DNA from: a virus
Length of the DNA: 37,494 nucleotides
Direction: 5' to 3' (one strand)
Virus record (IMG/VR): IMGVR_UViG_3300015242_000032
Location: 1 to 37,494 of that record
The first letter of the stretch is position 1. Each line of letters opens with the position of its first letter. Position numbers and translations under genes: made by a program. Below, piece after piece: positions 78-36,065 of this stretch. Under the pieces are notes generated by a model. It ran no database searches, was not told where the DNA came from, and saw only the letters and a list, made by a program, of their open reading frames with translations.

Positions 78-205
78 GCTGCAACGAAGCGCAACGGCTA
101 TTTTTCAGCATGATGCTTGGAGCGCGCGTATCCATGCGCCGCCGTGCCTGGCAGCAAGGGCTGGTAATCGTAAAGCCTGGAAGGATTGTAGGCCCGGCGA
201 ATTGA
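1..205 (+). CDS. C2H2-type zinc-finger protein, C-terminal part (continues from 37251)
   Basis: This is the 3' part of a 123-aa protein that starts at 37251 and crosses the circular join; base 1 is the third base of a GCC codon. This part encodes ADHILTEHSDNLTIQ and ends in an Arg-rich tail and VGPAN, stop TGA at 203-205. The last base of the stop is the first base of the dispersed hairpin at 205-233. The zinc ligands are in the N-terminal part (CERC) and here (H..x5..H in ADHILTEH). Probably a small nucleic-acid-binding or adaptor protein; no named family recognised. Confidence 0.8.
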   Translation, partial: DHILTEHSDNLTIQARTGTSLMCDDRCNEAQRLFFSMMLGARVSMRRRAWQQGLVIVKPGRIVGPAN

Positions 206-233
206 CGGGTCTGGGCTCTACTTGGAGCTCAGC
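205..233 (+). repeat. Dispersed RNA hairpin, copy A
   Basis: Leader ACGGGT, stem CTGGGCTC, loop TACTTG, stem GAGCTCAG, then C. The fourth pair is G-U on the transcribed (+) strand. It directly follows the TGA stop of the zinc-finger gene and lies about 30 nt before the next start codon. One of eight copies in the genome. Confidence 0.85.
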
Positions 234-4397: not shown

Positions 4398-5303
4398 ATG
4401 ACGCTTTTCAACAGAAGTCTGCGGCGACCAGCGCTTAGATATCACGGAGGAAAATTTCTGCTCGCTCCACGAATCATTGCGTTGTTCCCGGAGCACAGGA
4501 CGTACGTCGAACCGTTCGGTGGGGCTGCATCGGTTCTGCTCTGCAAACCGCGAAGCTACGCGGAAATCTATAACGATCGATGGGATGATGTGGTCAGAGT
4601 GTTTCGCGTGCTGAGGGATCCGGAGAAAGCGGCGGCGCTCGAGAAGCTACTCCGTCTTACTCCATTCGCCAGGACGGAATTCGAATCGGCGACTCGCGAC
4701 AATATCTCGCAACTTTCCGAACTCGAGATGGTCCGGCTTACGGTGTTCCGGTCTTTCGCCGGATTCGGTTCGGCATCGATAAATGGGAAGTACGCGACCG
4801 GCTTTCGATCTAACTCCAATCGCTCAGGAACCACGCCAGCGCAGGACTGGATGCATTTCCCGGACATGATCAGAGAATTCACAGATCGACTAGCTGGCGT
4901 CGTGATCGAGAATCGGGAAGGGATTGAGGTTATCGAGCAACATGACTGCGGCGATGCACTCCACTACGTCGATCCCCCATACCCGCACTCGACCAGAAAC
5001 ATGCAACGCGGCAACGCTGCCTATGCATGCGAGATGTCGGATGACGGGCATCGCCGGCTTGCGGAGATGCTTCACTCAGTGAAGGGACGCGTTCTGGTGT
5101 CCGGCTATCCCTGTGATCTCTATGATCGTGAACTCTTTCCGGACTGGATTCGCCTCACCATGGATTCTCTGGCGGACGGCGCTAGTCCTCGCACGGAGGT
5201 TCTCTGGGCGAACTATCAACCCAGATTGCACGAGCAGCTCGAACTGAAAATTAATTCACCAGAAAAATCCGCCGAAGCCGCGAGCGAAGGCGGTAAACTT
5301 TAG
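4398..5303 (+). CDS. DNA adenine-N6 methyltransferase, D12 (Dam) class (301 aa)
   Basis: The class motifs are in the right order: RYHGGK (14-19) at the N-terminus, VEPFGGAAS (37-45, AdoMet-binding motif I) and DPPY (192-195, catalytic motif IV). Length fits Dam-like enzymes. It transfers a methyl group from S-adenosylmethionine to adenine N6 in duplex DNA. No restriction endonuclease lies beside it, so it is an orphan methylase, as often carried by phages to evade host restriction or mark replication timing. The recognition site (perhaps GATC) cannot be read from the sequence. Start ATG 4398 has a weak ribosome site. Confidence 0.92.
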   Translation: MTLFNRSLRRPALRYHGGKFLLAPRIIALFPEHRTYVEPFGGAASVLLCKPRSYAEIYNDRWDDVVRVFRVLRDPEKAAALEKLLRLTPFARTEFESATRDNISQLSELEMVRLTVFRSFAGFGSASINGKYATGFRSNSNRSGTTPAQDWMHFPDMIREFTDRLAGVVIENREGIEVIEQHDCGDALHYVDPPYPHSTRNMQRGNAAYACEMSDDGHRRLAEMLHSVKGRVLVSGYPCDLYDRELFPDWIRLTMDSLADGASPRTEVLWANYQPRLHEQLELKINSPEKSAEAASEGGKL

Positions 5304-5602: not shown

Positions 5603-5842
5603 TCAAGCTGCTGGGAGTATGCCCATCACGCGCAAGTGTGCTTCGCAGGTAAGATTTATATCGTCAGCCGTATGATCTTCTCCTGGAAATGAGCAGCACA
5701 ACCTTCCGCCAAGCTGTTCTGTCCACGGAATCGTTGTCACTACGTCTTCACGTTTAGCAATGTGCTTACAAACAAACCACGATCTCTGCCGTCCATGAAT
5801 GTAACACTGGCAAAATCCGAGGATTCTTTTCCGTTGTGCCAT
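5603..5842 (-). CDS. Small Cys/His-rich protein (79 aa)
   Basis: Sequence has CQCYIHGRQRSWFVCKHI, then LCCSFPGEDHTAD and a final LTCEAHL. The series FVCKH...C...CeaH resembles small zinc-type domains common in bacteria and phages whose roles are mostly unassigned. Start is supported by GAGGAA 5-6 nt upstream. It is the last gene of the minus-strand unit, just after the tRNA in transcription order. Confidence 0.65.
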   Translation of the reverse strand: MAQRKRILGFCQCYIHGRQRSWFVCKHIAKREDVVTTIPWTEQLGGRLCCSFPGEDHTADDINLTCEAHLRVMGILPAA

Positions 5843-5859: not shown

Positions 5860-5933
5860 TGGTAGCGGGACCGGGAGTCGAACCCGGACCTGTGGAGTAT
5901 GAGCCCACCGGAGTACCATTTTCCTATCCCGCG
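5860..5933 (-). tRNA. tRNA-Met (CAU), initiator-like
   Basis: A 74-nt cloverleaf including an encoded CCA end. Acceptor CGCGGGA pairs with TCCCGCT at positions 2-7 only, leaving a C1-U72 mismatch. D-arm has GGA/TCC with A14 and GG at 18-19; anticodon stem GTGGG/TCCAC; loop CTCATAC with anticodon CAT (5899-5901); T-arm CCGGG/CCCGG with loop TTCGACT. An unpaired 1-72, a purine-11/pyrimidine-24 pair and GGG in the anticodon stem are features of bacterial initiator tRNA. It lies 6 bp after one small minus-strand gene and 17 bp before the next, so it is probably cut out of the late mRNA. Confidence 0.93.
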
Positions 5934-5939
5934 AAAGGT

Positions 5940-6110
5940 TTATCCTCGTTGCGCTTCTAGGTTCTGTTTTGTAATCAGATCGGCCTTATGCGCCGCCAGC
6001 GCGTCAATCGCCGCTTGGACAGCGGCAACGACATGGACGGGAAGTAGATACCTGAGCCTGCTCAAATATCCTTCGAGAAACGACAAACCGATGTCGATGA
6101 CTGTGATCAC
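5940..6110 (-). CDS. Small unknown protein with GTG start (56 aa)
   Basis: Reads VITVIDIGLSFLEGYLSRLR, then a helical Ala-rich part (VAAVQAAIDALAAHK) and ends EAQRG. The GTG shares one base with the TAG stop of the lipoprotein gene, and the stop lies 6 bp before the tRNA. It is easy to miss because of its size and GTG start. The regular amphipathic pattern and tight packing support it as coding. Function unknown. Confidence 0.55.
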   Translation of the reverse strand: MITVIDIGLSFLEGYLSRLRYLLPVHVVAAVQAAIDALAAHKADLITKQNLEAQRG

Positions 6111-6904: not shown

Positions 6905-7507
6905 TCACAGTATCGATCTAAATCTATTTCCATCAATGATGCAAAGTATTCGACGATCGGGACAGTCTCCAGAGTGATCAATGGTTACTTGGAACGGTTG
7001 CTGCTGGTAGATTAAGACTCCTTCGACTTCCGGAGAAAAGAACTTCCCTGGCGGTAGGATCTGATCCGCAGGAATAAAAGAGTGTCTTGTTTGGTTGCTG
7101 AATCTGTTTATAAGCGTTAATTTCTGGTCTAAAGACATCTTATCCCAATCTTCTGGTCTCGTCAGAATCATAGGATCGACCACGACAGAGAGCGGCGATT
7201 TCCAATAAATCCTTGCGCTAACAGAAAATTCAAGGGTAGATGTCCAATAGATGGCATCGTGGATAGGAACTAGATTTCCGTTGGATTCAAGAAAGGCACA
7301 TCTAATTCCCGTCACAAGAAATCTGTCAGGTGCTTCCAACACGTTTGGCAGAAACAAATTAGTGTCACGATACGTTTTACGCTGGCCGCTTTTCGAACTT
7401 ATTTGTCCGATCGGCGTAGAGAAAAGCGATAAACGTTCTTTTCCAAGAGGCTCAGAATCCATGAGAATGTTGGAAACTACATCCATGAGCCCATCAGCTA
7501 TCGGCAC
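6905..7507 (-). CDS. Capsid-type protein, paralogue of the candidate major capsid protein (200 aa)
   Basis: Three segments match the protein at 23011-23772 in order: LSLFSTP with TLFSVP; LEAPDRFLVTGI with LQAPERMLVRGI; and GVLIYQQQPFQVTID with GILIAQQQAFRVEID. Between them are beta-rich segments. The two are therefore probably one fold, used for two shell parts (for example main capsomer and vertex). GTG at 7507 is chosen because AAAGGGAG sits 6 nt before it; a GTG at 7528 would put that site inside the gene. Its place among lysis genes, 15 kb from its paralogue, is odd. Confidence 0.6.
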   Translation of the reverse strand: MPIADGLMDVVSNILMDSEPLGKERLSLFSTPIGQISSKSGQRKTYRDTNLFLPNVLEAPDRFLVTGIRCAFLESNGNLVPIHDAIYWTSTLEFSVSARIYWKSPLSVVVDPMILTRPEDWDKMSLDQKLTLINRFSNQTRHSFIPADQILPPGKFFSPEVEGVLIYQQQPFQVTIDHSGDCPDRRILCIIDGNRFRSIL

Positions 7508-7524
7508 GTGTTTTCTCCCTTTCC

Positions 7525-8004
7525 TCACGAACTAAATTCGTCAATCGCCAATTGGTCCCACACCGCCTGGACTCCACCGACGCGGCAAAGTTCCTGAATC
7601 TCCGGAGTCGGCTCCGTAGGAATTTCCGCGAGCTCTAGGTGCGGAAGATCGTGCCAGGATTTACCGTCGCGCAGGCCGTGCGCCGGAGCCAGAGCCACGA
7701 TTCGCTGCCAGGAAGGATGCGTAGCGTTCCAATCCGCGCGATTCAAGATGGGGTCTACGGGAGAAACGTCCACGGCGCACCCGATCACGTGATTTGATTG
7801 GAAACCTTTCGCGTGCGTCACTTTCGTGCCGGGGACCGTGCGCCCGATGGCGTAAAGGTTGTCCTGTTCCGCCGGGGTGCGCAACGCTGTGTCGATTTCG
7901 ATGATGATGCCTTCCGATTCCAGCGCGTCCACCAGATTGTTGATTCGCCGCGCAAGTTCCGGATGCACTTGCCGAAGCCGCTCGATCGAGAGATTGGAGA
8001 GCAT
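7525..8004 (-). CDS. M15-family peptidoglycan peptidase, candidate endolysin (159 aa)
   Basis: The family pattern is clear: FR-type segment LRTPAEQDNLYAIGRT, then SNHVIGCAVDV with zinc ligands H72 and D79, then SWHDLPHLE with the third ligand H122. Such enzymes (VanY/L-alanyl-D-glutamate peptidases) cut the peptide stems of peptidoglycan. No signal peptide or membrane segment is present, so a holin would be needed for release. A GAGGAT site lies 4-5 nt before the start. It is followed by the spanin-like pair after one capsid-type gene. Confidence 0.88.
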   Translation of the reverse strand: MLSNLSIERLRQVHPELARRINNLVDALESEGIIIEIDTALRTPAEQDNLYAIGRTVPGTKVTHAKGFQSNHVIGCAVDVSPVDPILNRADWNATHPSWQRIVALAPAHGLRDGKSWHDLPHLELAEIPTEPTPEIQELCRVGGVQAVWDQLAIDEFSS

Positions 8005-8189: not shown

Positions 8190-8393
8190 AAGTCACTAAA
8201 TTATCTGGAAAACACGCGAAGGCCGGAACGGCGGTAAAAGCTATCTTGAACGGGACATCCCGCGCCAGGCCCACGGTCCCACGTACGGAACGCTCCTGCT
8301 TTTATCACATCGCGGCTGTAACGCAAAAGGAAATATTCGGTTCGGGCTTGGCTGAGCTCCAAGTAGAGCCCAGACCCGGTCCCCGGCTGAAGA
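8190..8393 (-). other. Gap of about 200 bp with no assignable gene
   Basis: Holds hairpin copy B at 8351-8380. Short frames occur on the minus strand, for example 8026-8274 beginning MGLARDVPFKIAFTAVPAFA, but none has a ribosome site and they overlap the zinc-ribbon frame. It may contain decayed coding sequence. Confidence 0.4.
8351..8380 (-). repeat. Dispersed RNA hairpin, copy B
   Basis: Read on the minus strand: ACCGGGT leader (one extra base), stem CTGGGCTC, loop TACTTG, stem GAGCTCAG. The fourth pair is G-U in the sense strand. It follows the transglycosylase stop by about 14 nt. Confidence 0.8.
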
Positions 8394-9803: not shown

Positions 9804-9832
9804 GCTGGACTCCAAGTAGAGCCCAGACCCGT
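9804..9832 (-). repeat. Dispersed RNA hairpin, copy C
   Basis: Sense strand: ACGGGT, stem CTGGGCTC, loop TACTTG, stem GAGTCCAG. The fifth pair is G-U, a different position from copies A and B. It sits between the TGA of one gene and the ribosome site of the next, in a 42-bp gap. Confidence 0.85.
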
Positions 9833-10367: not shown

Positions 10368-10396
10368 GCTGGGCTGCAAGTACAGCCCAGACCCGT
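10368..10396 (-). repeat. Dispersed RNA hairpin, copy D (compensatory change)
   Basis: Sense strand: ACGGGT, stem CTGGGCTG, loop TACTTG, stem CAGCCCAG. The closing pair is G-C in place of C-G, so both arms have changed together. It lies 20 nt before the start of the two-pass membrane protein gene. Confidence 0.87.
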
Positions 10397-14589: not shown

Positions 14590-17076
14590 TTAGTTTAACC
14601 TTGCCCGTAGCTGACGACCTGTGAATGAGTTGCTGCCGCTGGCCACGGAAAACGCCGCCGTGATCTGTAGAAATAACGGTCCCGTTGTGTCGATGGCTGA
14701 AGTTACGGCGGTGTTTGCGTCACCGAATACCTGCGATGCAACCGCCGCGGTTAGATCGACCGTTAAGTTGCCATGAGCCTCGAAAACGGAACTGGCCCCG
14801 CCTGTCTGAGTTGTCGAGAACAATTGCGCACTGAAGGCATTATTTGTTTGGCCTCCAGCGTTCGCGGTAGAGGTGAAGGTGGCAAGAGTTATCACTATGC
14901 CGCTGCCGCATCCTGAAACTGTGCAGAGTTTAGCCTTCACGGTTACAGTGGAGGTGTTTGCGGCGGTCGTCGTATAGACGCCAGCCGTCCATATATCCAA
15001 TGTGTGGCCAACGATGTTCAGCGAGTTCGACGGGATCGGGATAGCCTGAAGAAGCTGATCCGTCGCCACGTTCGCGTTCACCGTAACTGGGGTGACATTC
15101 GATTCTGCGCTCTCACCGCCGATATAAAATAGGCTCGTACCATCGTAGATGAACGGATAAACCCTGCAAACGCTCGCATCCAGGTGCGTTAAAGGCGGGT
15201 CTTTCATGTTCGTCGGCCAGACAAACGATCGTCCACCCGTCCCATCCTGGCAGAGTTCAAAAAACTCAGCCTGACTTTCCCTGAGATTGTTCAGAGTCGC
15301 TCCGGTGACATTGGCTGTGAGCGTATTGGAAAACACGTTTCCGGTCGATAGATTGAATGCCGGTGTCGCGGAGGAAGCTATCGTCTGCTTAGTGTTGTAA
15401 GCAAATCCTACGTTGGATTGAACGAATTGATTCGATGATTCCGTGGCAAGTCGTAAGCTATTTGCCGTCGCAGATAGGACAGCATCGCCACCTGGAACAG
15501 TCGTGAGGATTCTGCCATCCTTACGTAGCTGCAAAAGTGATACGTTATTCTTCTCAAAATTAAATACCACCGATCCACTGGCGGATGCCGTATCTGTGAC
15601 GTTGAGAACAAATCCCTGCCCGATCAGCCCAGCATTGTTCCATGTGGTTCTAAACTGAGCCATTGGCGTGGCAACCGTATTCGTGATCGAACCTTGTACT
15701 ATGTCAATCGGTGTGGCTGTGGAGTTCGTCGCCGTCGAAACGGTCACGACCGATTGATTCGCCAATCCGCTTGTCAGCGTGCCTCCTGTCGCGGCTGAAG
15801 TTTCTCCAAACGTGATGCTGTCCTGCGAATCTGTGGTCTGCGCCCAGTTCCACCTCTGAGGATTATTTCCGTTGGCGATGGTGTTCGATGCTACCGCCGC
15901 GGTTATGGCTGATAGAGCCGCGCCGCTTGTACAAGCCACCTCCACTATCATTCCCAATGTTCCTAAACTATTTACACAAAGCCCTCCCGCTGGCGCGGCT
16001 GACCACCAGGCTAGGGGAACTTCCGCTACACCGTTCACTCCGGTTACCAGCGAGTGAGTCGTAGTCGCTCGGATGAAACTCTGCCCCGCTGTGGGAGTGC
16101 CCGCTACGGCGCCCTCTGTGAAGGCGATGCATCCGGTAGCCGCGCCGCACGCCGTTGGACCTGTGCCGACGCTGAGGGAGTTCGTGCAGTTCAGGTTTCC
16201 GGTCAAAGTGAACGTGCAGCCGGTACTCCAAATCATCGGCGTGCCCGCGCCGCCTTGAGACACCAGGAAATTTCCTGTGCTGCCAGCCGTGATCGGATAG
16301 TCCCATTCTGCATCTGCCGGCATTACGCCCGGATTCTTCATGTTGAGCTTGTGCGCTACGGCGCTATCTGTGATTGAGTAAAATCCTGTTATGCCGGCCG
16401 AAATTAAACCAGCGGCAATCTCACCTTGCACGTCAATCAAAGGAGCCGATTGCGTGCCTGAATGCTGGATGATCGTGAGAGGGGTAACCCCATCCGCGCT
16501 TGCAGTGAATGATATCGCGCCTGTTCCCGCCGTTACGGCGCTGCCTGATACGTCGCCGATTACATTCGGAGCCGTGGCAAAAGTTAAGTGCGTGGCCGTG
16601 ACTGCGCCGGTAATTCCGGTAGGGCCGGCGCCGGAAAAATTCGTTAGATTTGGCGCGGCTGCCGTAAGCGTTACGCTGATATTCTGGCTCGCCCCGGAAA
16701 TCGTCATCGTTACGACAAAAGTTTGCGATCCGGTGCCCAGCGGCGGCGCGATCCCTCCAGGATTGGAATTTATGGTGATCTGCCATTGCGAGGCTGCCGG
16801 GGTGATGATGGCGTTGCTGCCGAACTGGGCCGTGAACGTGCCCGTGGAATCCAGCGTGGCCGGTCCCACGCGTCCAGAATAGGGCTGCCCACTGAGCCGC
16901 CATCCGCCAGACGATGCAGGCACGAGAATCGCGCTCATCGTGCCGCCGGCGTACGGAATGCCGTTCGCATCGGTGACCGTGCCCGTAACCGTAGTGAACT
17001 GAGCCCTCGAATCTTGGGCCGCAGAGATCCCACACAGGATCACTGCCATCAGGATCATCACTCTACGTTTTTTCAT
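14590..17076 (-). CDS. Secreted fibre-like protein with shared N-terminal domain (828 aa)
   Basis: Signal peptide MKKRRVMILMAVILCGISAA, then a domain of about 120 aa (VTGTVTDANGIPYAGGTMSA onward) of the carboxypeptidase-regulatory-like (CarboxypepD_reg) type, shared with the genes at 17101 and 18381. The middle is a repetitive Thr/Gly/Ala beta-type region. The C-terminal part contains FFELCQDGTGGRSFVWPTNM, a pattern I associate with phage tail-fibre and spike proteins. A common base domain with different ends is the usual layout of receptor-binding proteins. A signal peptide on a virion protein is unusual. GGGAGA lies about 10 nt before the ATG. Confidence 0.7.
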   Translation of the reverse strand: MKKRRVMILMAVILCGISAAQDSRAQFTTVTGTVTDANGIPYAGGTMSAILVPASSGGWRLSGQPYSGRVGPATLDSTGTFTAQFGSNAIITPAASQWQITINSNPGGIAPPLGTGSQTFVVTMTISGASQNISVTLTAAAPNLTNFSGAGPTGITGAVTATHLTFATAPNVIGDVSGSAVTAGTGAISFTASADGVTPLTIIQHSGTQSAPLIDVQGEIAAGLISAGITGFYSITDSAVAHKLNMKNPGVMPADAEWDYPITAGSTGNFLVSQGGAGTPMIWSTGCTFTLTGNLNCTNSLSVGTGPTACGAATGCIAFTEGAVAGTPTAGQSFIRATTTHSLVTGVNGVAEVPLAWWSAAPAGGLCVNSLGTLGMIVEVACTSGAALSAITAAVASNTIANGNNPQRWNWAQTTDSQDSITFGETSAATGGTLTSGLANQSVVTVSTATNSTATPIDIVQGSITNTVATPMAQFRTTWNNAGLIGQGFVLNVTDTASASGSVVFNFEKNNVSLLQLRKDGRILTTVPGGDAVLSATANSLRLATESSNQFVQSNVGFAYNTKQTIASSATPAFNLSTGNVFSNTLTANVTGATLNNLRESQAEFFELCQDGTGGRSFVWPTNMKDPPLTHLDASVCRVYPFIYDGTSLFYIGGESAESNVTPVTVNANVATDQLLQAIPIPSNSLNIVGHTLDIWTAGVYTTTAANTSTVTVKAKLCTVSGCGSGIVITLATFTSTANAGGQTNNAFSAQLFSTTQTGGASSVFEAHGNLTVDLTAAVASQVFGDANTAVTSAIDTTGPLFLQITAAFSVASGSNSFTGRQLRARLN

Positions 17077-17100
17077 GGTCCGCGTCTCCCGATCGGTCAG

Positions 17101-18372
17101 CTAGATTGCCTGCACTCTTGCAAAGATTTTGTATCTTGGTGAATTGGCCGTACTCGTTGAGTAGGTCAACGCCGTGCCTGTCACGAATCGAATGGGAAAA
17201 CTGAGCGTTTGTATCGTGCCCGTTACTGCGGCGTTCAAGGAAGCGCCGCTAGGCGCCTGCGCTCCCGTATCATCCGCATAACCAATACTTGTAGTGATCG
17301 TGGCAGTCGCCACACCCGTAGACACTTCCACGTAGATCGTCACAATATAAAATCCAGTGGCATAGGTGGACGCCATCAGCGTGACAGGGGCATAGTTTCC
17401 AGTTATTTCTACGGTGTGGTTGTCCGCTCCTACGGTCGAGGCGATTCCGTTTCCCCCTACAGGAAGTAAATTATTTCCATAGGTAAGAAGTTTGGCAGCG
17501 TTGATTTCAAATTGAATCCCTGTATTTACTCCCCCCGCGAAGGGTCTTGCAAACCAATAGGCCGGGTTATTATTTGAAGAATACTCCCAATTCCCCGCTC
17601 CCCAAATTATCAAATCTGTACCTATCCCCACTACGGTGTCCCCGTGAACATGATTCCCAAAATTGTTTGTGTATCTATCTCCGGACGCTAGATTCGTCCA
17701 TTTCTCCACTATGGCGTTGGATGCACCTATATTTGTCGTTGTGACCTGAATCAAAGGTCCAGTTTGAGTTCCCGAGTTGGGAAGTATGGTTAACGGGGTT
17801 GCGGTATCACTGCTCGCTGTAAGAGTGATCTCTCCCGTTCCTGCGGTAACCGAGCTTCCTAGAATGCCGGCCAACGCGCCAGCGAGGTTGTACTGCAATT
17901 GCGTCGGAGAGCCGCCCGCCGTCGTGCTGAAAAAGTTGGTCAGTTTCGGCGCCAGGGAGTTCAGCGTTACGCTGATATCTTGGCTCGCCCCGGAGATCGT
18001 CATCGTTACAACAAAAGCCTGAGACCCGGTACCAAACGGTGGCGGAATTCCTCCGGGATTGGAATTTATGGTGATCTGCCATTGCGAGGATGCCGGAGTG
18101 ATGAGGGCGTTGCTGCCGAAATTTACCTTAAACGTGCCTGTGGAATCCAGCGTAGCCGGTCCCACGCGTCCGGAATAGGGTTGCCCGTTGAGTTGCCATG
18201 CGCCAGACAATGCAGGCACAAGGATCGCGCTCATGATGCCGTAGGAGTACGGAATGCCGTTTGGATCGGTGACTGTGCCCGTAACGGTCGTGAACTGAGC
18301 CCTGGAATCCTGAGCCGCAAAGATCCCGCACAGGATCACCGCCATCAGGATCATCACTCTACGTTTTTTCAT
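17101..18372 (-). CDS. Secreted fibre-like protein, second paralogue (423 aa)
   Basis: The first 130 residues are nearly those of the 14590 protein (MKKRRVMILMAVILCGIFAA, then GTVTDPNGIPYSYGIMSAIL), showing a recent duplication. The C-terminal 290 residues are different, ending in a beta-rich domain (TYSTSTANSPRYKIFARVQA). Start 18372 is chosen by alignment with the paralogue; a longer frame to 18447 exists. Likely an alternative host-binding protein or part of the same fibre. Confidence 0.68.
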   Translation of the reverse strand: MKKRRVMILMAVILCGIFAAQDSRAQFTTVTGTVTDPNGIPYSYGIMSAILVPALSGAWQLNGQPYSGRVGPATLDSTGTFKVNFGSNALITPASSQWQITINSNPGGIPPPFGTGSQAFVVTMTISGASQDISVTLNSLAPKLTNFFSTTAGGSPTQLQYNLAGALAGILGSSVTAGTGEITLTASSDTATPLTILPNSGTQTGPLIQVTTTNIGASNAIVEKWTNLASGDRYTNNFGNHVHGDTVVGIGTDLIIWGAGNWEYSSNNNPAYWFARPFAGGVNTGIQFEINAAKLLTYGNNLLPVGGNGIASTVGADNHTVEITGNYAPVTLMASTYATGFYIVTIYVEVSTGVATATITTSIGYADDTGAQAPSGASLNAAVTGTIQTLSFPIRFVTGTALTYSTSTANSPRYKIFARVQAI

Positions 18373-18380
18373 GGCGAATC

Positions 18381-19544
18381 TCAAAAGCATTTCCAAATCG
18401 TGCCGTTGGAAAAGGCTATCGCAGCATTCGTGCTGCTGCCAACGCACGTCTGGCCTTCCGAAGCGACGGCCGTGGAATCGGAAAGAACGGCCGTCTGGCC
18501 TTTATTCCCGGAAGCCGCGGCGCCTAGCGATGCGAGCGTGACGGGAACGTACTTAAACGACGGAGAAAGAACCGTCCCGCCGAAGGAATTCGGCGCGGTT
18601 CCGGCCTCGAAAAGTCCATAGTTTAAGGAACTGCCAACTCCGGCTTGATCTGAAATGTAAATTCCATAGTTCGCTGTGGGCATCACTGCGCCGAAAGCAT
18701 TGCTGTAGATCAGCAAGCCGATCGTGTTCCCCACTAATCCGGCGCCCGTGGCATGAGCCTGAAAAGCCCCACCGATACAGAATGCAGTCGTGGCGGCCGC
18801 TCCGGGCTGGCACCAGGTGTCGCCTTCCAGCGCTTGCTGAATCGTAGTTAAGCCGCTGGCCGCGTTTCCCAGAGTTCTCGAGCTGAATCCTCCGATCACT
18901 TGGCCGGGAGTGTTCTGCTGGTCGATCACCCGCAGAGCCATAATCTGGTTCGGCTGGTTCAGTATTCCGAAGACAAACGGCGAATCGTTGAACGCGGACT
19001 GAATTACTGCCGCGTCGTAGCTGCCCCTCGGCGGGCCAACTAGAAATTGCTGCGTGATGGCGGCGATGCTGGCAGGCGACGTGAGCGTGAACAGCGACGT
19101 CCCGAGATTGAGATTCGTTAGCTTAGGAGCCGCAGCGTTCAACGTTGTGCTGATGTTCTGAGTTGCGCCGGAAATCGACATGGTCACGGTGAACGATTGG
19201 CCGCCGGTTCCCATCGGCATAGGAATTCCGCCGAGATTGGAATTCACCGTGATCTGCCATTGAGATCCGCCAGGCAGAATGATGGCGTTGCTGCCGAACT
19301 GCACCGTAAAGCTGCCCGTCGAATCGAGCGACGTCGTTCCGATGCGTCCGCCGTAGGAATTTCCGCTCAGTGTCCAATTTCCCGGAGACGCTGGCACGAG
19401 GACCGCGCTTACCGTTCCGCCGGCGTATGGAATGCCGTTCGGATCGACGACCGTTGCGGAGACGGCGGTAAACTGCGCGCGCGCCGTCTGCGTAAAAAGA
19501 AACGCCCCGGCAAGTACCAGGGCGACGTGAGTGATTTTCTTCAT
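18381..19544 (-). CDS. Secreted fibre-like protein, third paralogue (387 aa)
   Basis: MKKITHVALVLAGAFLFTQT is a signal peptide ending ARA-Q; the shared domain follows (VSATVVDPNGIPYAGGTVSA). The rest is unlike the other two and ends SSTNAAIAFSNGTIWKCF, a short C-terminal form seen in many phage fibre proteins. Start 19544 is preferred to 19550 because AAAGG lies 7 nt upstream. The stop is 8 bp before the next paralogue. Confidence 0.68.
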   Translation of the reverse strand: MKKITHVALVLAGAFLFTQTARAQFTAVSATVVDPNGIPYAGGTVSAVLVPASPGNWTLSGNSYGGRIGTTSLDSTGSFTVQFGSNAIILPGGSQWQITVNSNLGGIPMPMGTGGQSFTVTMSISGATQNISTTLNAAAPKLTNLNLGTSLFTLTSPASIAAITQQFLVGPPRGSYDAAVIQSAFNDSPFVFGILNQPNQIMALRVIDQQNTPGQVIGGFSSRTLGNAASGLTTIQQALEGDTWCQPGAAATTAFCIGGAFQAHATGAGLVGNTIGLLIYSNAFGAVMPTANYGIYISDQAGVGSSLNYGLFEAGTAPNSFGGTVLSPSFKYVPVTLASLGAAASGNKGQTAVLSDSTAVASEGQTCVGSSTNAAIAFSNGTIWKCF

Positions 19545-19567
19545 GGCCATCCTTTAGCCCGCTAGTT

Positions 19568-20893: not shown

Positions 20894-20921
20894 GCTGGGC
20901 TCCAAGTAGAGCCCAGCCCGT
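20894..20921 (-). repeat. Dispersed RNA hairpin, copy E
   Basis: Sense strand: ACGGG leader (one base shorter), perfect stem CTGGGCTC/GAGCCCAG with loop TACTTG. The leader overlaps the TGA stop of the gene at 20921, and the hairpin ends about 20 nt before the next ATG. Confidence 0.87.
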
Positions 20922-21631
20922 CACCACGCGACCGACTGATCCTGCGCCTCGAACTGATCGTCCCAGGTGCGCGGATAGAAATAGCCGCCCAGCAACGCGC
21001 CGACTTCCTCCCCGGCGACGGGCAATAGCACGTTCTTAAAAAGGAATGCGAGGACGTCGTTTTCGTAAATGCGGATGCCGGAAATTTTCGCGGGATTGTT
21101 GATCAGCCCGTACGATGCTTCGATATCTTGATAGTTGCGTTCCGCCATCGTGGCAGCCGCGCCCGTTGCTTGGTTACGAACGATCTGCCATATCGCATCC
21201 CCGGAGAAATCCGACCATGCGCCGCCCACGACGACGTTGGCGATTCTATTCAGCACGCCGTTTCTACCAGGCGGGCAGGTGATCGACACTACCGTGTGGA
21301 ATGCGCCATCCGCTGCCGGCATCGTGATCCCGCCGCCGAGATGAAACGATTCAGAGTCCGGAGGCTCGATCAGCCACGGCGCGGAAATTAGGCGCGTCGA
21401 ACGCTGCACCTGCTGCATGGTTTGCTGAAGCGCCGCGATCGTCAAAAGCAACGGATCGTCGGAAGCGTCAGGCTGTTCCGGTGGACGCAACAAAATATTG
21501 TGCGAGATGGAATGATCGGCAGCGCGCTTGTACGGCCATGTGGACGCGCGAATCGAGGACGATGAGGCGCCCGTAGCGTTTGGCTGGCCCGCAGCGGCGG
21601 ATGGGCTCGTATTGTTTTGATCGTAGGCCAT
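20921..21631 (-). CDS. Capsid-associated jelly-roll-like protein (236 aa)
   Basis: The first 60 residues are low-complexity and polar (MAYDQNNTSPSAAAGQPNAT), then SHNILLRPPEQPD and a helical segment with AALQQTMQQVQ. The C-terminal half is beta-rich (NRIANVVVGGAWSDFSGDAI ... VLAFLFKNVLLPVAG ... GGYFYPRTW), matching the general pattern of the neighbouring capsid-type proteins that end in a G-Y strand. It begins MAYD, near the MAYA start of the late membrane proteins. Start 21631 follows GGAGAG by about 10 nt. Spike or penton protein is a reasonable guess. Confidence 0.55.
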   Translation of the reverse strand: MAYDQNNTSPSAAAGQPNATGASSSSIRASTWPYKRAADHSISHNILLRPPEQPDASDDPLLLTIAALQQTMQQVQRSTRLISAPWLIEPPDSESFHLGGGITMPAADGAFHTVVSITCPPGRNGVLNRIANVVVGGAWSDFSGDAIWQIVRNQATGAAATMAERNYQDIEASYGLINNPAKISGIRIYENDVLAFLFKNVLLPVAGEEVGALLGGYFYPRTWDDQFEAQDQSVAW

Positions 21632-21633
21632 TT

Positions 21634-21795
21634 TTATTGCTCTCCACGCCACGTCATCCCGCTAAATTCTGGAGCGAAACAACTTTTCGCATACTTCCTT
21701 AAACTGCATCTTTTCGGAGCGTTCCACCAAATCCACAATCCGATAGGATTCAGAAAAAGCCACAGCCCGCGATACCATGGCAAACGAAAGTCCAT
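21634..21795 (-). CDS. Small membrane protein (53 aa)
   Basis: MDFRLPWYRGLWLFLNPIGL followed by WIWWNAPKRC gives one Trp-rich membrane segment, then a basic tail. GGAGAG lies just before the start, which shares one base with the TGA of the upstream gene (an ATG one codon earlier is also possible). The stop is 2 bp before the next ATG. Probably a virion or assembly membrane protein. Confidence 0.6.
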   Translation of the reverse strand: MDFRLPWYRGLWLFLNPIGLWIWWNAPKRCSLRKYAKSCFAPEFSGMTWRGEQ

Positions 21796-23010: not shown

Positions 23011-23772
23011 CTACAGGACCGCGCGAGCCTTCTGTCCTTCCAGATAGACGAACGCGTTGATGCCGGTGCCAATGGGCACGGTACTGTTCGCGCTCGTGGT
23101 GAAGCCTGTAGCTTGCGCCCAGGCCGCTTGCGTCGGATCGATTTCCACTCGGAACGCCTGTTGCTGCGCGATCAGAATGCCGTCGATATTCGGGAACTGA
23201 TCGACTCCGGGAACGCCGTCGCATCCGGGATCGGTGAGTCTGAATCCCTGGTGCTCGGTCGGAATTCCGTTGCCAACCGTTCCGATGATCGTGGTCGCCG
23301 CGGTTGCTCCGAATTGCTGCGCCCACGTGCCGCCGCCCGCGGGAAGTTTCGCCAGCACGCCTACCACAAAGAACGACTTCGTAGAGATGAAGAAGTTCAC
23401 GATGGTCTGCGAGCCGAACTTATTCATGTCGCCCTGATGAATATCGTTCGAGGCGAACACGGTGATCCCGCGCACCAACATGCGCTCCGGTGCCTGGAGC
23501 TGGTTCGATTGCTGCATGCTGGTCATTTGCAGGGTTTTCGTGACCGTCGCGCCGCCGGTGATGGTGAATGGATTATTTTGCGGCACGGAGAACAGCGTTT
23601 GCTTCACAACCGCCGTTGAAACCGCCACACCGTAATAGTCCCATTCCGGTTGCACAACGAAATCGCCGAGCCCGGCCGCCAGCATGTTCCGCAAACGGAA
23701 CCGCGGACGCCCAATCTCGTGAGCCGAAATTTCCTGCAAATGCGAAAATCTTGCTGCATTGAGATGTTTCAT
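23011..23772 (-). CDS. Candidate major capsid protein (253 aa)
   Basis: A beta-rich protein of a size suited to a jelly-roll capsid protein (PM2 P2 is about 269 aa). Key segments: TLFSVPQNNPFTITGGATVT, LQAPERMLVRGITVFAS, FGSQTIVNFFISTKSFFVVG and GILIAQQQAFRVEIDPTQ. It is free of signal peptide and membrane helices, well expressed by layout (AAAGGAG ribosome site), and lies between other shell-like genes. The paralogue at 6905 supports a structural role. No sequence-level match to a named capsid family is claimed; structure prediction is needed. Confidence 0.5.
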   Translation of the reverse strand: MKHLNAARFSHLQEISAHEIGRPRFRLRNMLAAGLGDFVVQPEWDYYGVAVSTAVVKQTLFSVPQNNPFTITGGATVTKTLQMTSMQQSNQLQAPERMLVRGITVFASNDIHQGDMNKFGSQTIVNFFISTKSFFVVGVLAKLPAGGGTWAQQFGATAATTIIGTVGNGIPTEHQGFRLTDPGCDGVPGVDQFPNIDGILIAQQQAFRVEIDPTQAAWAQATGFTTSANSTVPIGTGINAFVYLEGQKARAVL

Positions 23773-27206: not shown

Positions 27207-27973
27207 TATCGCCGCCTCCGTTTTGGCCGTGACGAAACGTACGAAGTCACAATCGAACCGACCACGAAGAGCCCTGCCAGAACTCCCCAATTCGGCACGC
27301 CTGCAACGAACGTCTGATCCGTGAACCACGACGCGATACTGGAAACCGCGCCGGAAATATCCACGGCCGCAGGTTTTGCGATCAACTGGCCTTGATTCGC
27401 GAGCGCCTGGCCCTGCGCCGTCAGGTGTCCCGCGGCGTTCACCAATTGGCCGGACGCGCTGAGGATTTGCGCCGCGTTCGTCAGCACGCCGCTGAAGCTT
27501 TTGCCCGTCGTGGGATCGACGAGCCCCGAAACATTTTGCGCGGATTGCGTCTGCACGTTGCTCGTTGCCGAGCCGGTGGTCGCTTCCGTCACCGTTTGCG
27601 CAATGTGCATTGGCACCATCTGCCCAGTCTGAATATTTAAATATTGGTCCGCGCCTACAAGCTGGAATTCCGTTCCAATCGTCGGTGGATAAAACGAACT
27701 GAGCGGCGGCGTGACGATGTTCGGCAACGGCAAATCCGAAATGTAGGTCGGAGGCTCCATCGGCGGCGAGAAGGGTTCCGGTGGAATCAGATCGCCGGTA
27801 TCGGTGTACGTCGTGTCGAATTGCAGATCCATTGCACCGAGACTTTTTCTGACTGGGCTCCAAGTGGAGCCCAGACCCGAACCGCACTGGCATTCACGGC
27901 TTCCGCACGACGCACACCCGTGCAGCGAGAGCGTGAGGTTCGGCAACGGCGAATTTAGTTTCGCGTAAGCCAC
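27206..27973 (-). CDS. Tail-anchored membrane protein ending in RRRR (255 aa)
   Basis: GTG 27973 is chosen: it follows GGAGGG by 9 nt and gives VAYAKLNSPLPNLTLSLHGC, like the MAYA starts of two neighbours. The CASCGSRECQC cluster follows, then the hairpin copy F in frame (GSGLGSTWSP). The body is Pro-rich then helical Ala/Gln-rich, and the end is a membrane helix (WGVLAGLFVVGSIVTSYVS) with RPKRRRR. The alternative start is ATG 27832 (MDLQFD), 20 nt after the hairpin, but it has no ribosome site. Confidence 0.58.
   Translation of the reverse strand: MAYAKLNSPLPNLTLSLHGCASCGSRECQCGSGLGSTWSPVRKSLGAMDLQFDTTYTDTGDLIPPEPFSPPMEPPTYISDLPLPNIVTPPLSSFYPPTIGTEFQLVGADQYLNIQTGQMVPMHIAQTVTEATTGSATSNVQTQSAQNVSGLVDPTTGKSFSGVLTNAAQILSASGQLVNAAGHLTAQGQALANQGQLIAKPAAVDISGAVSSIASWFTDQTFVAGVPNWGVLAGLFVVGSIVTSYVSSRPKRRRR
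27852..27880 (-). repeat. Dispersed RNA hairpin, copy F (inside a coding frame)
   Basis: Sense strand leader TCGGGT, perfect stem CTGGGCTC ... GAGCCCAG (the loop reads CACTTG), ending CCCAGT. It reads as GLGSTWSP in the frame from GTG 27973, or lies 20 nt before ATG 27832. Confidence 0.82.
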
Positions 27974-28181: not shown

Positions 28182-28517
28182 TCAGCGCCGCCTCCGTCCG
28201 CCGAAGGCTTTCAGCAGCAAAAATCCGGCACCGATCGCAAAAATTGAATTCGGCATTCCGGGAACGAACGTGGAACCGCCGAGCCATGTAAGCGCCTGGT
28301 CCCAAAGGCTGGTGCCCGTTGGGACAGTGGCGGTGCTGATCGAAAATTGTCCTCCCGGCCCCATCGAAATACTGGTGAGTGGGGCGTCCCCTAAGCCTCT
28401 GAAGTTCGGGTGCAACCCAGCACTGCTACGCGTGGACATCGCAGCATAAGATCCGAGCCCCCTCAGACTCGGATGAAGCCCGGAAGTGTTTCGCGTGTTG
28501 TTTGACGCGTAAGCCAT
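28182..28517 (-). CDS. Tail-anchored membrane protein with duplicated GLHPSLRGLG motif (111 aa)
   Basis: MAYASNNTRNTSGLHPSLRG then a second copy, STRSSAGLHPNFRGLG, about 20 residues later. A Gly-rich stretch (SMGPGGQFSIS) leads to a Trp-containing part and a membrane helix (IFAIGAGFLLLKAFGG) with RRRR end. The ATG shares a base with the preceding TAA (TAATG). The repeated motif also occurs in the proteins at 28517 and, in part, 29443. Confidence 0.65.
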   Translation of the reverse strand: MAYASNNTRNTSGLHPSLRGLGSYAAMSTRSSAGLHPNFRGLGDAPLTSISMGPGGQFSISTATVPTGTSLWDQALTWLGGSTFVPGMPNSIFAIGAGFLLLKAFGGRRRR

Positions 28518-33716: not shown

Positions 33717-33992
33717 AAATGTCCATGCCCTCTGCCTGACACCTACACTCCACTGTAACCTTTCTACCCTTCCTTCCTCGCGCGCGCGCGTAGAGGGGGT
33801 GGGGCGTGGACATTTGACACCTAATGCCAGTGAATACATACACTTAAAATGTCCAAAGGGGGGTGGACAGGTAGTGGACATTTAGAAGTGGTTTAGTATC
33901 TAAGCTATAGAGCCGAAACGACATTTTAAATGTCCACCCCCCTTTGGACATTTTAAACCGCTCGTTCTATTGCCTTTAAGTGTCAAATGTCC
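33717..33992. other. Probable replication origin: AAATGTCC iterons and 26-bp inverted repeat
   Basis: Seven good copies of AAATGTCC(A), in both orientations, lie at 33717, 33807, 33847, 33875, 33928, 33945 and 33985, plus a partial TGGACA at 33864. A perfect 26-bp inverted repeat has arms 33844-33869 and 33931-33956 with 61 bp between. GACATTTTAAATGTC (33920-33934) is a further near-palindrome. A (CG)6 run is at 33779-33790 and AT-rich sequence follows to 34100. No gene fits here. Its place after the helicase and before a small regulator suggests an origin or its control site. Confidence 0.65.
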
Positions 33993-34186
33993 GCCCTCTC
34001 CCCCTCTCGCAGGGGTGTTTTGGCAGGTATATAAAAATTACTCGCTTCACTTTTAGGTATGTGGAGTCTCTGGAGATATATAAATGGACTTTAAATCTTC
34101 TTCTTTTTTTTCAGATTCCCCTTGACATGTTTTACGAGTTGATATAAGTATACTGCGTTAGACGTTGTCGGTTACTTGGAGGCGCT
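33993..34186 (+). other. AT-rich spacer before the regulator gene
   Basis: Contains ATATATAAATGG and a T-run (34101-34111) and the promoter at 34122. No coding frame is supported. It could be the melting region of the origin. Confidence 0.4.
34122..34150 (+). promoter_or_regulatory. Promoter of the regulator gene
   Basis: -35 TTGACA (34122-34127). The -10 is less certain: TAAGTA at 17-bp spacing (34145-34150) or TATAAG at 15 bp (34143-34148). It lies 37-60 bp before the GTG start. Confidence 0.5.
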
Positions 34187-34622: not shown

Positions 34623-35099
34623 ATGCGAGCCCCGCAAAGTATTCGTTCACGATTCCAGAACTGGCTTTGGCGTCAATTCCTGCTATCTGCGCGCGCGATC
34701 GTGTGGGCCGCGGACGAATGGATTCACAGTCAAGAAGTGAAGCTACGAACTACGGGTCTGGGCTCTACTTTAAGCCCAGCGATAACGGGTCTGGGCTGTA
34801 CTTGCAGCCCAGCCATAAAGGAGAACGATGAAAGCTACGATCGAGAGTACGAACAAGCTGGTGATCGTGAACGGGCTGCAATTTCGCGTTTGGGAAGGCG
34901 TGAGCGAGAAAGGGACGAAGTTTGTGGCGCTGATGAACCGGATCATCAGTTCTATTCCGGACGACCACAAAGCGTTGGTTATCGAGACGATGGCCGAGCA
35001 CCGCAAACCCGATCCGACGACCGCCACCGCGCTCGAACAACTCGGCGTATAAAGATCACCGCCGCGGACTTTGACCGAAAATACGCTGGTGTGGCATGA
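34623..35099 (+). CDS. Frame with strong start that reads through two hairpins (158 aa)
   Basis: AGGGAGG stands 4 nt before ATG 34623. The first 43 residues (MRAPQSIRSRFQNWLWRQFL, then LSARAIVWAADEWIHS) form an amphipathic basic/apolar helix. The frame then passes through hairpin copies G and H in phase (TTGLGSTLSP, ITGLGCTCSP) and on, out of frame with the gene at 34828, to TGA 35099 that overlaps the next ATG in ATGA. The N-terminal part is probably real; the rest has shadow-like composition (many Arg/Asp/Gly). The true end may have been lost when hairpins arrived. Confidence 0.4.
   Translation: MRAPQSIRSRFQNWLWRQFLLSARAIVWAADEWIHSQEVKLRTTGLGSTLSPAITGLGCTCSPAIKENDESYDREYEQAGDRERAAISRLGRRERERDEVCGADEPDHQFYSGRPQSVGYRDDGRAPQTRSDDRHRARTTRRIKITAADFDRKYAGVA
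34752..34780 (+). repeat. Dispersed RNA hairpin, copy G
   Basis: ACGGGT, stem CTGGGCTC, loop TACTTT, stem AAGCCCAG; the closing pair is lost (C against A), leaving 7 pairs. First of a tandem pair, 4 nt before copy H. Confidence 0.82.
34785..34813 (+). repeat. Dispersed RNA hairpin, copy H (compensatory change)
   Basis: ACGGGT, stem CTGGGCTG, loop TACTTG, stem CAGCCCAG: the same C-G to G-C swap as copy D. Ends 14 nt before ATG 34828 and just before its AAAGGAG site. Confidence 0.87.
34828..35052 (+). CDS. Unknown small protein (74 aa)
   Basis: MKATIESTNKLVIVNGLQFR then VWEGVSEKGTKFVALMNRII; ends TATALEQLGV. AAAGGAGAACG before the ATG is a strong ribosome site, right after hairpin H. The N-terminal part looks like a small beta-hairpin plus helices. 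In the other frame just after its stop, KITAADFDRKYAGVA reads like a natural continuation, so a frameshift is possible. Function unknown. Confidence 0.65.
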   Translation: MKATIESTNKLVIVNGLQFRVWEGVSEKGTKFVALMNRIISSIPDDHKALVIETMAEHRKPDPTTATALEQLGV

Positions 35100-35299
35100 C
35101 GCACGCCGGCCGAAACCTGCTGTACCGCGTCGAGACGCGCTGCGCCGAGGAATACGGCCGCGCGCTCGCCCGCGTGGAGTTGGATAGCGTCAAGCCTGGA
35201 AATCCCTTCGAGTTCATCGCCTGGCATCACGCAATTTATATCGTGCATCGCCTGCGATGGGGACGTTTTGTCAATAAACCTTTAGGAGGCGGGGCTTAG
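35096..35299 (+). CDS. Unknown small protein (67 aa)
   Basis: MTHAGRNLLYRVETRCAEEY then mixed helix/strand ending FVNKPLGGGA. The start lies in an ATGA overlap with the frame above. Its last codons (GGA GGC GGG GCT) are already part of the first pentamer array. No family recognised. Confidence 0.5.
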   Translation: MTHAGRNLLYRVETRCAEEYGRALARVELDSVKPGNPFEFIAWHHAIYIVHRLRWGRFVNKPLGGGA

Positions 35300-35350
35300 C
35301 ATGGCTAGGCATGGTTAGGCGTGGCATGGCAGGGCAGGGCAGGGCGAGGA
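35286..35350 (+). repeat. Pentamer array 1, 13 units of NNGGC
   Basis: From 35286 the sequence divides into 5-base units with consensus NNGGC (GAGGC GGGGC TTAGC ATGGC and so on) in strict register up to 35350. It starts in the end of the gene at 35096 and stops 19 bp before the next ATG. Confidence 0.88.
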
Positions 35351-35369
35351 AAATTGAAAGGATCACCAC

Positions 35370-35897
35370 ATGAACAGAGGAATTGAGATCGAGATCACCG
35401 GAATCAGTCCCATTTTGATGCATGCTTTTCCGCTTGTGCCCGTCGAGGCGATTGACAAGAAAACACCAGAAGAGCAGGCGGAAATAGCCGCTTACCGCGA
35501 TCCCAACACACGTCAACTCTACATTCCAGCGCAAGCGATGCAACGAGCATTGGTACGCTCGGCCACGTTTTCCAAAGGCAAAGGCCGCGCCACGTTGCAG
35601 AAAATAGTTGCCGCCTGCGTCATGGTCGGCCCGGAACGCGCATCGCTCGGCGTTGAGGACTACGTGATTGATAAACGCGCCGTGGTCATTCCAGCCACGC
35701 AAGGACGCGTCGTGCGTTACAGGCCGCGGCTGGACGTGTGGAAGACTACTTTTAGCGTGGCTTACGATCCTGACCTGTTGACCGACGTGCAATTGCGCCG
35801 CGTCGTCGACGATGCAGGAAGCCGTGTCGGATTGCTGGATTATCGGCCTGAACGAAATGGCCCGTTCGGACGTTTTTTCGTTACTCGATGGAAGTAA
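35370..35897 (+). CDS. Conserved phage-type protein ending in a GPFGRF motif (175 aa)
   Basis: MNRGIEIEITGISPILMHAF, then RQLYIPAQAMQRALVRSA, SKGKGRATLQKIVAACVMVG and at the end VGLLDYRPERNGPFGRFFVT. From memory, this set of motifs belongs to a common family of phage proteins without an assigned role, often near replication or recombination genes. The opening TGISPILMH resembles the first strand of RAMP/Cas7-like folds, which is only a suggestion. AAAGGATC precedes the ATG. It is flanked on both sides by the pentamer arrays. Confidence 0.65.
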   Translation: MNRGIEIEITGISPILMHAFPLVPVEAIDKKTPEEQAEIAAYRDPNTRQLYIPAQAMQRALVRSATFSKGKGRATLQKIVAACVMVGPERASLGVEDYVIDKRAVVIPATQGRVVRYRPRLDVWKTTFSVAYDPDLLTDVQLRRVVDDAGSRVGLLDYRPERNGPFGRFFVTRWK

Positions 35898-35905
35898 TAG
35901 ATTTA

Positions 35906-36030
35906 AGGGCGTGGCATGGCAAGGTGAGGCCGGGTTAGGCGAGGCTAGGCATGGCGATGCGAGGTAGGGCACGGCAGGGCCTGGCGAGGCAGGCCATGGC
36001 GAGGTTAGGCAGTGTAGGGCAAGGCAGGGA
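35906..36030 (+). repeat. Pentamer array 2, 25 units of NNGGC
   Basis: Runs in strict 5-base register from AGGGC (35906) to AGGGA (36030). Most units fit NNGGC; variants are mainly NNGGT. The G-rich strand is the coding strand. It fills the gap between the GPFGRF-protein gene and the next gene at 36066. Confidence 0.9.
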
Positions 36031-36065
36031 TTTTCAATTACTCAACACTTAGGAGGCGGATTGCG

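Follow-up and report, generated by a model that had tools for sequence, protein, structure and literature searches.

The tRNA Gene and Its Surroundings

The window, the whole stretch of 37,494 bases analyzed here, is a complete virus record with a 77-nt direct end repeat, so the genome is probably a closed circle. A single tRNA gene is found in it by ARAGORN, tRNA-Met(cat) at 5860..5933 on the minus strand, and the Rfam RF00005 match to this gene (55.3 bits, E 2e-09) is the sole RNA-family match in the 37,494 bases. The gene, its parts, and the open reading frames that are needed below are as follows.

5860..5933, minus strand: initiator-type tRNA gene, CAU anticodon, CCA encoded at 5860-5862 (ARAGORN, Rfam, covariance models)
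5933..5933, minus strand: C1, unpaired, opposite U72 at 5864 (sequence reading; Table 2 of PMC5143459)
5892..5907 (approximate bounds), minus strand: core of the anticodon arm, with GGG at 29-31, loop CUCAUAC (CAU, C38), and U39 C40 C41 (sequence reading; bacterial comparison)
5940..6110, minus strand: 56-aa ORF that ends 6 nt before the tRNA, with no homologue in 22 relatives
5603..5842, minus strand: 79-aa ORF just past the tRNA, private to the window genome
467..2596, plus strand: HerA/FtsK-like ATPase, used to find relatives (sequence searches, structure model)

The 56-aa ORF and the tRNA likely share a transcript. Neither of the two ORFs adjacent to the tRNA has a homologue in the 22 related records, which indicates that the tRNA lies within an insertion private to this genome, in a region that is variable. 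The preliminary description of the locus had placed the gene in a late operon, a location that is not borne out by its position at the downstream end of a minus-strand gene block, in a private stretch near which no promoter was found. A D12-class adenine methyltransferase gene (4398-5303, plus strand) lies beside this accessory region and, among the relatives, is shared only with G016 and G017.

Read 5' to 3', the tRNA is CGCGGGA UA GGAA AAUGGUA CUCC G GUGGG CUCAUAC UCCAC AGGU CCGGG UUCGACU CCCGG UCCCGCU A CCA; the gene is intact, and its structure is preserved despite many substitutions. At the acceptor end, C1·U72 is unpaired and is followed by G2:C71 and C3:G70, with A73 and CCA in the gene; according to PMC5143459, CCA is templated in initiator genes more often than in most tRNA classes. 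The D stem contains G11:C24, that is, purine 11 and pyrimidine 24, and a second mismatch, A13·C22. In the anticodon stem, G29:C41 and G30:C40 are followed by a G31·U39 wobble, and the partners of the GGG are therefore UCC, which is initiator-type, but if three strict G:C pairs are required, the third one fails. Position 38 is C, where every bacterial match listed has A38. The CAU anticodon, the non-pairing C1-U72, and the purine 11/pyrimidine 24 pair had been correctly described from the sequence, as had the presence of GGG in the anticodon stem, but the wobble in its third pair had been missed. The cloverleaf, at −25.1 kcal/mol, is close to the minimum of −25.2, and the sequence folds no better than its shuffles (z −0.22); unmodified folding alone does not single it out, and the case depends on the covariance models.

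Assignment to the Initiator Class

The survey of Ardell and Hou (PMC5143459) covers 9,917 bacterial CAU tRNAs, comprising 4438 initiators, 2762 elongator Met, and 2717 Ile2. In it, C·U at 1:72 occurs in 626 of the initiators, G:C at 11:24 in 3 (the usual form being A:U), and GGG,UCC at 29-31,39-41 in 18, and each of these states occurs in 0/2762 elongator Met and 0/2717 Ile2 tRNAs. All three states of the window tRNA are thus exclusive to initiators in the survey (0/5479 others).

Three covariance models were built with genes of E. coli and of genomes of one phylum, the initiator model from 19, the Met model from 6, and the Ile2 model from 10. The window tRNA scores 55.9 bits with the initiator model (R1), 42.7 with the Met model (R2), and 41.3 with the Ile2 model (R3), a margin of +13.2. 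With the same three models, a control initiator (L121) gave 98.6, 67.2, and 64.4 bits and a control Ile2 gene (L396) gave 57.5, 83.8, and 97.3 bits; the initiator margins of 60 non-CAU control tRNAs, drawn from 12 of 46 sources and with missing scores counted as absent for a few of them, ranged from −28.7 to +8.8, all below that of the window tRNA. The survey states together with a model margin above the controls make the initiator call firm, with a weaker G·U in place of G:C as the third pair of the GGG stem, and the window tRNA belongs to the initiator class rather than to elongator Met or Ile2, as the preliminary description had proposed. The tRNA has the determinants of formylation given in PMC7949028 and PMC9976931, except that G11:C24 replaces A11:U24.

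The Virus and Its Relatives

A structure model of the first 400 residues of the ATPase, made with 18 sequences (mean pLDDT 70), has PDB matches to HerA hexamers (TM ~0.55, best E 7.1e-12), and its matches in a viral library include, among others, a Corticoviridae NTPase and an ATPase of virus PH1. The Corticoviridae and virus PH1 are tailless membrane viruses. No tail, portal, or terminase families were found among the subset of ORFs scanned against Pfam and PHROGs, and named phage records gave no tblastn match to the virus family. The window virus is possibly tailless, and its family may have no representative among named phage records. Most full-length genomes of the HerA-like ATPase virus family are 34-37 kb. 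The only genome match, at 35% identity, is a MAG labelled Proteobacteria. PDB profile searches with the ATPase and with the proteins at 23011-23772 and 20921-21652 gave nothing credible, and a capsid fold for the 23011-23772 protein was discarded at a structure prediction pLDDT of 31.

Searches with the ATPase retrieved 22 related virus records (G001-G011, G016-G026), of which 10 carry direct repeats of 99-127 nt at their ends and probably represent complete genomes. A wider gene set, which includes the 253-aa protein 23011-23772, is common to 14 relatives. With Rfam at E <= 10, no tRNA above cut-off was found in 21 of the 22, the exception being G020. Degenerate tRNAs in the relatives were considered and rejected, as the same search gave, apart from the G020 tRNA, only two 22-nt partial matches of 11.2 bits, one each in G018 and G019.

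The G020 tRNA (CAU, 28257-28331, minus strand, locus L051:1498-1572) lies ~4.1 kb past the ATPase, as compared with 3.3 kb in the window, and is likewise on the minus strand, 6 nt after an ORF. It has A1:U72, U11:A24, A31·C39, and an unusual D-arm (A8, U14), shares 59% identity with the window tRNA, and is flanked by genes that are not homologous to the neighbours of the latter; judged by sequence, the two are probably not the same gene. Its initiator margin of +6.4 bits falls within the spread of the controls, 3 of the 60 having a larger margin, and A:U at 1:72 is found in 0/4438 bacterial initiators in PMC5143459. With respect to conservation of the 1:72 mismatch, G020 is the only relative with a CAU tRNA, and it is paired at this position, but in a gene that is probably a different one.

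The relatives also bear on the earlier suggestion that an initiator would help late genes with poor ribosome sites. With starts chosen by one rule, identical for all genomes, the mean Shine-Dalgarno (SD) energy of 17 core genes is −5.75 in the window, and the means of ten relatives that lack the tRNA span −5.42 to −6.89 (p = 0.45, paired Wilcoxon test); the start codons, 11 ATG and 6 GTG, are inside the relatives' range. The sites are no weaker than in genomes that lack the tRNA, so that the late genes do not look adapted to an extra initiator, contrary to that suggestion.

Several other features of the window were recorded. The minus-strand protein 6905-7528 has weak phmmer similarity (best E ~1e-7) to proteins homologous to 23011-23772, the best conserved of the late proteins, and may, from this similarity, be a second copy of that type. 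Three tandem proteins at 14590-19550 (minus strand) have apparent signal peptides, resemble one another in their N-terminal domain (300-nt repeats; identity to the first copy, 68-83%), and are perhaps virion fibres. Nested inverted repeats at 33796-34004, one of them a perfect 26/26 (33844-33869 / 33931-33956), lie just after a DnaB-like helicase gene and are origin-like, and a G-rich array with a period of ~10 nt (35276-36034) flanks the ORF at 35370-35897 on both sides. A dispersed 29-nt hairpin (ACGGGTCTGGGCTSTACTTGSAGCCCAGC) is present in 8 copies oriented with transcription, and changes in its stem are partly compensated.

205-233 (+), 8351-8378 (-), 9804-9832 (-), 10368-10396 (-), 20894-20916 (-), 27853-27879 (-), 34752-34780 (+), 34785-34813 (+): copies of the 29-nt hairpin

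At least 3 copies are ~15-30 nt upstream of a start codon. The hairpin is absent from G001-G010 by regex and has two copies in the distant relative G011; it is possibly a 5'-leader RNA element or a promoter-linked repeat.

Comparison with Bacterial and Viral Initiator tRNAs

The window tRNA shares with bacterial tRNA-fMet the unpaired 1:72, G2:C71, C3:G70, R11:Y24, GGG at 29-31, CAU, A37, A73, and encoded CCA, but differs in the G11:C24 and GGG,UCC forms that are rare among initiators (3/4438 and 18/4438 in PMC5143459) and in C38, as well as in its D-loop of 7 nt, as compared with 9 in E. coli, and its variable loop of 4 nt. Bacterial pattern searches were made in 398 genomes of a single phylum, that of the MAG. 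A stricter first initiator pattern had matched 4 of 120 genomes, and the general pattern used instead matched 202 of the 398, with A38, C39, and A72 in all matches listed. GGG-stem initiators with a residue other than A at 38, or with U39, were each found in 0/398 genomes of this one phylum. When the anticodon loop was left free, 37 of 150 genomes matched, and the loop was CUCAUAA in all 62 matches listed. C·U at 1:72 and GGG,UCC occur elsewhere in bacteria, as PMC5143459 records, and the initiator of the MAG itself (L068, from G015) has U1·U72, indicating that U72 is not purely viral. Recent copying of a host tRNA was rejected on the basis of a BLAST search with the window tRNA that matched 9 of 60 genomes, mostly in the 3' half only, and of the viral source of its closest match among the tRNAs compared.

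The nearest tRNA found is viral, at L212:530-603 on a virus contig, and is 83% identical, as compared with 69% for E. coli. It resembles the window tRNA in C1-U72, the GGG stem, a residue other than A at 38, and a short D-loop but differs in A11:U24, U38, and C39, and its contig stretch shares no detectable protein with the window. In virus contigs, searches with the general initiator pattern and with a non-A38 pattern each gave at least 120 matches; by locus numbers, 14 of the 120 general-pattern loci listed recur from the non-A38 scan and the other 106 are new. The comparison of the two scans included 206 of 234 viral and 39 of 40 bacterial CAU tRNAs, the bacterial ones being of the GGG-stem type only, with L068 left out. 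The matches of the two virus-contig scans are not all initiators: unpaired 1:72 and R11:Y24 occur together in 41/98 and 25/108 of them. An exact anticodon-arm pattern was dropped after matching 3 stretches of virus contigs, none with a tRNA.

Virus contigs were also searched by the initiator D-arm, which yielded 120 stretches with 109 distinct CAU tRNA sequences that were not chosen on the anticodon arm; from this set, as from that of the two scans, rows without the expected T-loop or with a duplicate sequence were dropped. Position 1:72 is unpaired in 86 of the 109 but is C·A in only 23, which indicates that the mismatch is for the most part preserved even as its letters change; selection to preserve it appears to act on viruses as a group. 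In the same sample, position 38 is changed in 8 tRNAs, 32 in 9, 33 in 6, 37 in 6, and 39 in 25. Position 38 is therefore no more variable than 32, 33, or 37, which speaks against it as a special target of nuclease escape; position 39 varies more than 38, but as part of a stem.

Initiator-type tRNAs are common in other phages. Of 50,697 phage records, 411 contain a match to E. coli tRNA-fMet, and in 304 the match spans 80% or more of that tRNA; the statement that phage tRNAs are usually elongators does not serve to mark this one as a rarity. Phage T5 carries a tRNA-fMet. Among 16 phage records examined, Mycobacterium phage Roots515, Pseudomonas phage pf16, and Prevotella phage Lak-B4 keep the GGG stem and an unpaired or apparently unpaired 1:72, while others have lost the GGG stem. 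These three share CAU and R11:Y24 with the window tRNA and have A and C (by eye), A1-A72, and U and U (by eye), respectively, at 1:72; the tRNA of Caulobacter phage CcrPW, a tRNA-fMet by its record note, also has CAU and R11:Y24 but differs in U1:A72 and UGG. All four phages have genomes of 156-551 kb and keep A38, whereas the window tRNA has C38 and is alone in a 37-kb genome. A full-text search of one literature collection found no paper on a phage-encoded initiator tRNA, so that such genes seem to be known from annotation and little discussed.

Discussion

We consider it likely that this is a true initiator tRNA gene whose product augments or substitutes for the initiator supply of the infected host. 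The analysis establishes the gene, its class, its rare variants, and its private position; from these, we infer that the tRNA would be expressed, charged, formylated, and used, and that the virus would benefit. Transcription would run from the minus strand, host RNase P would mature the product, whose CCA is already encoded, and the host methionyl-tRNA synthetase would charge it through the CAU anticodon; because 1:72 is unpaired and G2:C71, C3:G70, and R11:Y24 are present, it should be formylated by the host formyltransferase. IF2 would then deliver the formylated tRNA to the P site, the 1:72 mismatch would bar EF-Tu and hence elongation, and the viral tRNA would supplement or replace the host initiator pool in the infected cell. 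Several observations count against this explanation: with G31·U39, one of the three G:C pairs that serve in the P-site step is weaker; 21 of 22 relatives manage without a tRNA above cut-off, and 10 of the 22 records are probably complete; the fold does not surpass that of shuffled sequences; and no promoter was found nearby.

It is conceivable, though unlikely, that the tRNA is a nuclease-resistant replacement initiator, with C38 and U39 evading toxins of the VapC kind that cut tRNA-fMet between A38 and C39, so that viral translation continues. The enteric VapC cut site is A38/C39 (PMC4105405), where the window tRNA has C38 and U39, and GGG-stem variants of either kind are missing from all 398 bacterial genomes, 202 of which have the general pattern, while non-A38 forms number at least 120 in virus contigs. 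Changes in the anticodon loop of mycobacteriophage tRNAs are predicted in PMC10264068 to resist such enzymes, and the window tRNA resembles these in being altered at a known cut site but differs in that neither a matching nuclease nor an enrichment of changes at 38 is in evidence, this position being no hot spot in the D-arm sample (8/109). Moreover, the bacterial sample is one phylum, GGG with U39 occurs in 18/4438 bacterial initiators (PMC5143459), and phages are described in PMC10264068 as generally avoiding tRNA-fMet where VapC cuts it. We give still less weight to the proposal that an extra initiator boosts late viral mRNAs with weak ribosome sites or GTG starts, which is quite doubtful: the tRNA is at the end of a minus-strand block and under the chosen rule GTG is the start codon in 6 of 17 core genes, but SD strength and start codons do not differ from those of ten tRNA-less relatives (p = 0.45), which carry the same late genes. 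Nuclease escape and extra demand are both possible, and neither is favoured by the tests run.

A host tRNA gene acquired through recombination, or remaining as an attachment site, and of no benefit to the virus would agree with a lone tRNA in a private accessory stretch without homologues in relatives. However, the nearest tRNA found is viral and not bacterial, the structure is intact despite the many substitutions, and no integrase was found among the subset of ORFs scanned against Pfam or PHROGs, a result on which an attachment-site origin was rejected; such a passenger is rather improbable. An elongator tRNA-Met, or a dual role, might be entertained because initiator-derived phage tRNAs that have lost the GGG stem or are paired at 1:72 exist (e.g. 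Aeh1, Milchi) and because one poorly formylated tRNA can serve both roles, according to PMC7949028. It is highly improbable here, given three states found in no elongator Met or Ile2 tRNA in PMC5143459 and covariance scores that favour the initiator.

A broader proposal, which we advance with considerable reserve and regard as rather unlikely, is that viruses of many lineages maintain an initiator tRNA line of their own, relaxed relative to the bacterial form at 1:72, 38, and 39, so that the start of viral translation survives the cutting or disabling of the host initiator by defence toxins, the small HerA-ATPase virus being a stripped-down case with that tRNA alone. Explanations of phage tRNAs by codon usage do not extend to initiators, since each gene requires one start and no more. 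With a solitary initiator in a small genome, the purpose of phage tRNAs can for this reason be tested directly, as depletion of the host pool versus demand for starts. If the tRNA is functional, natural initiators tolerate C1·U72, G11:C24, G31·U39, and C38 combined, and this combination would be useful for testing which marks the ribosome needs.
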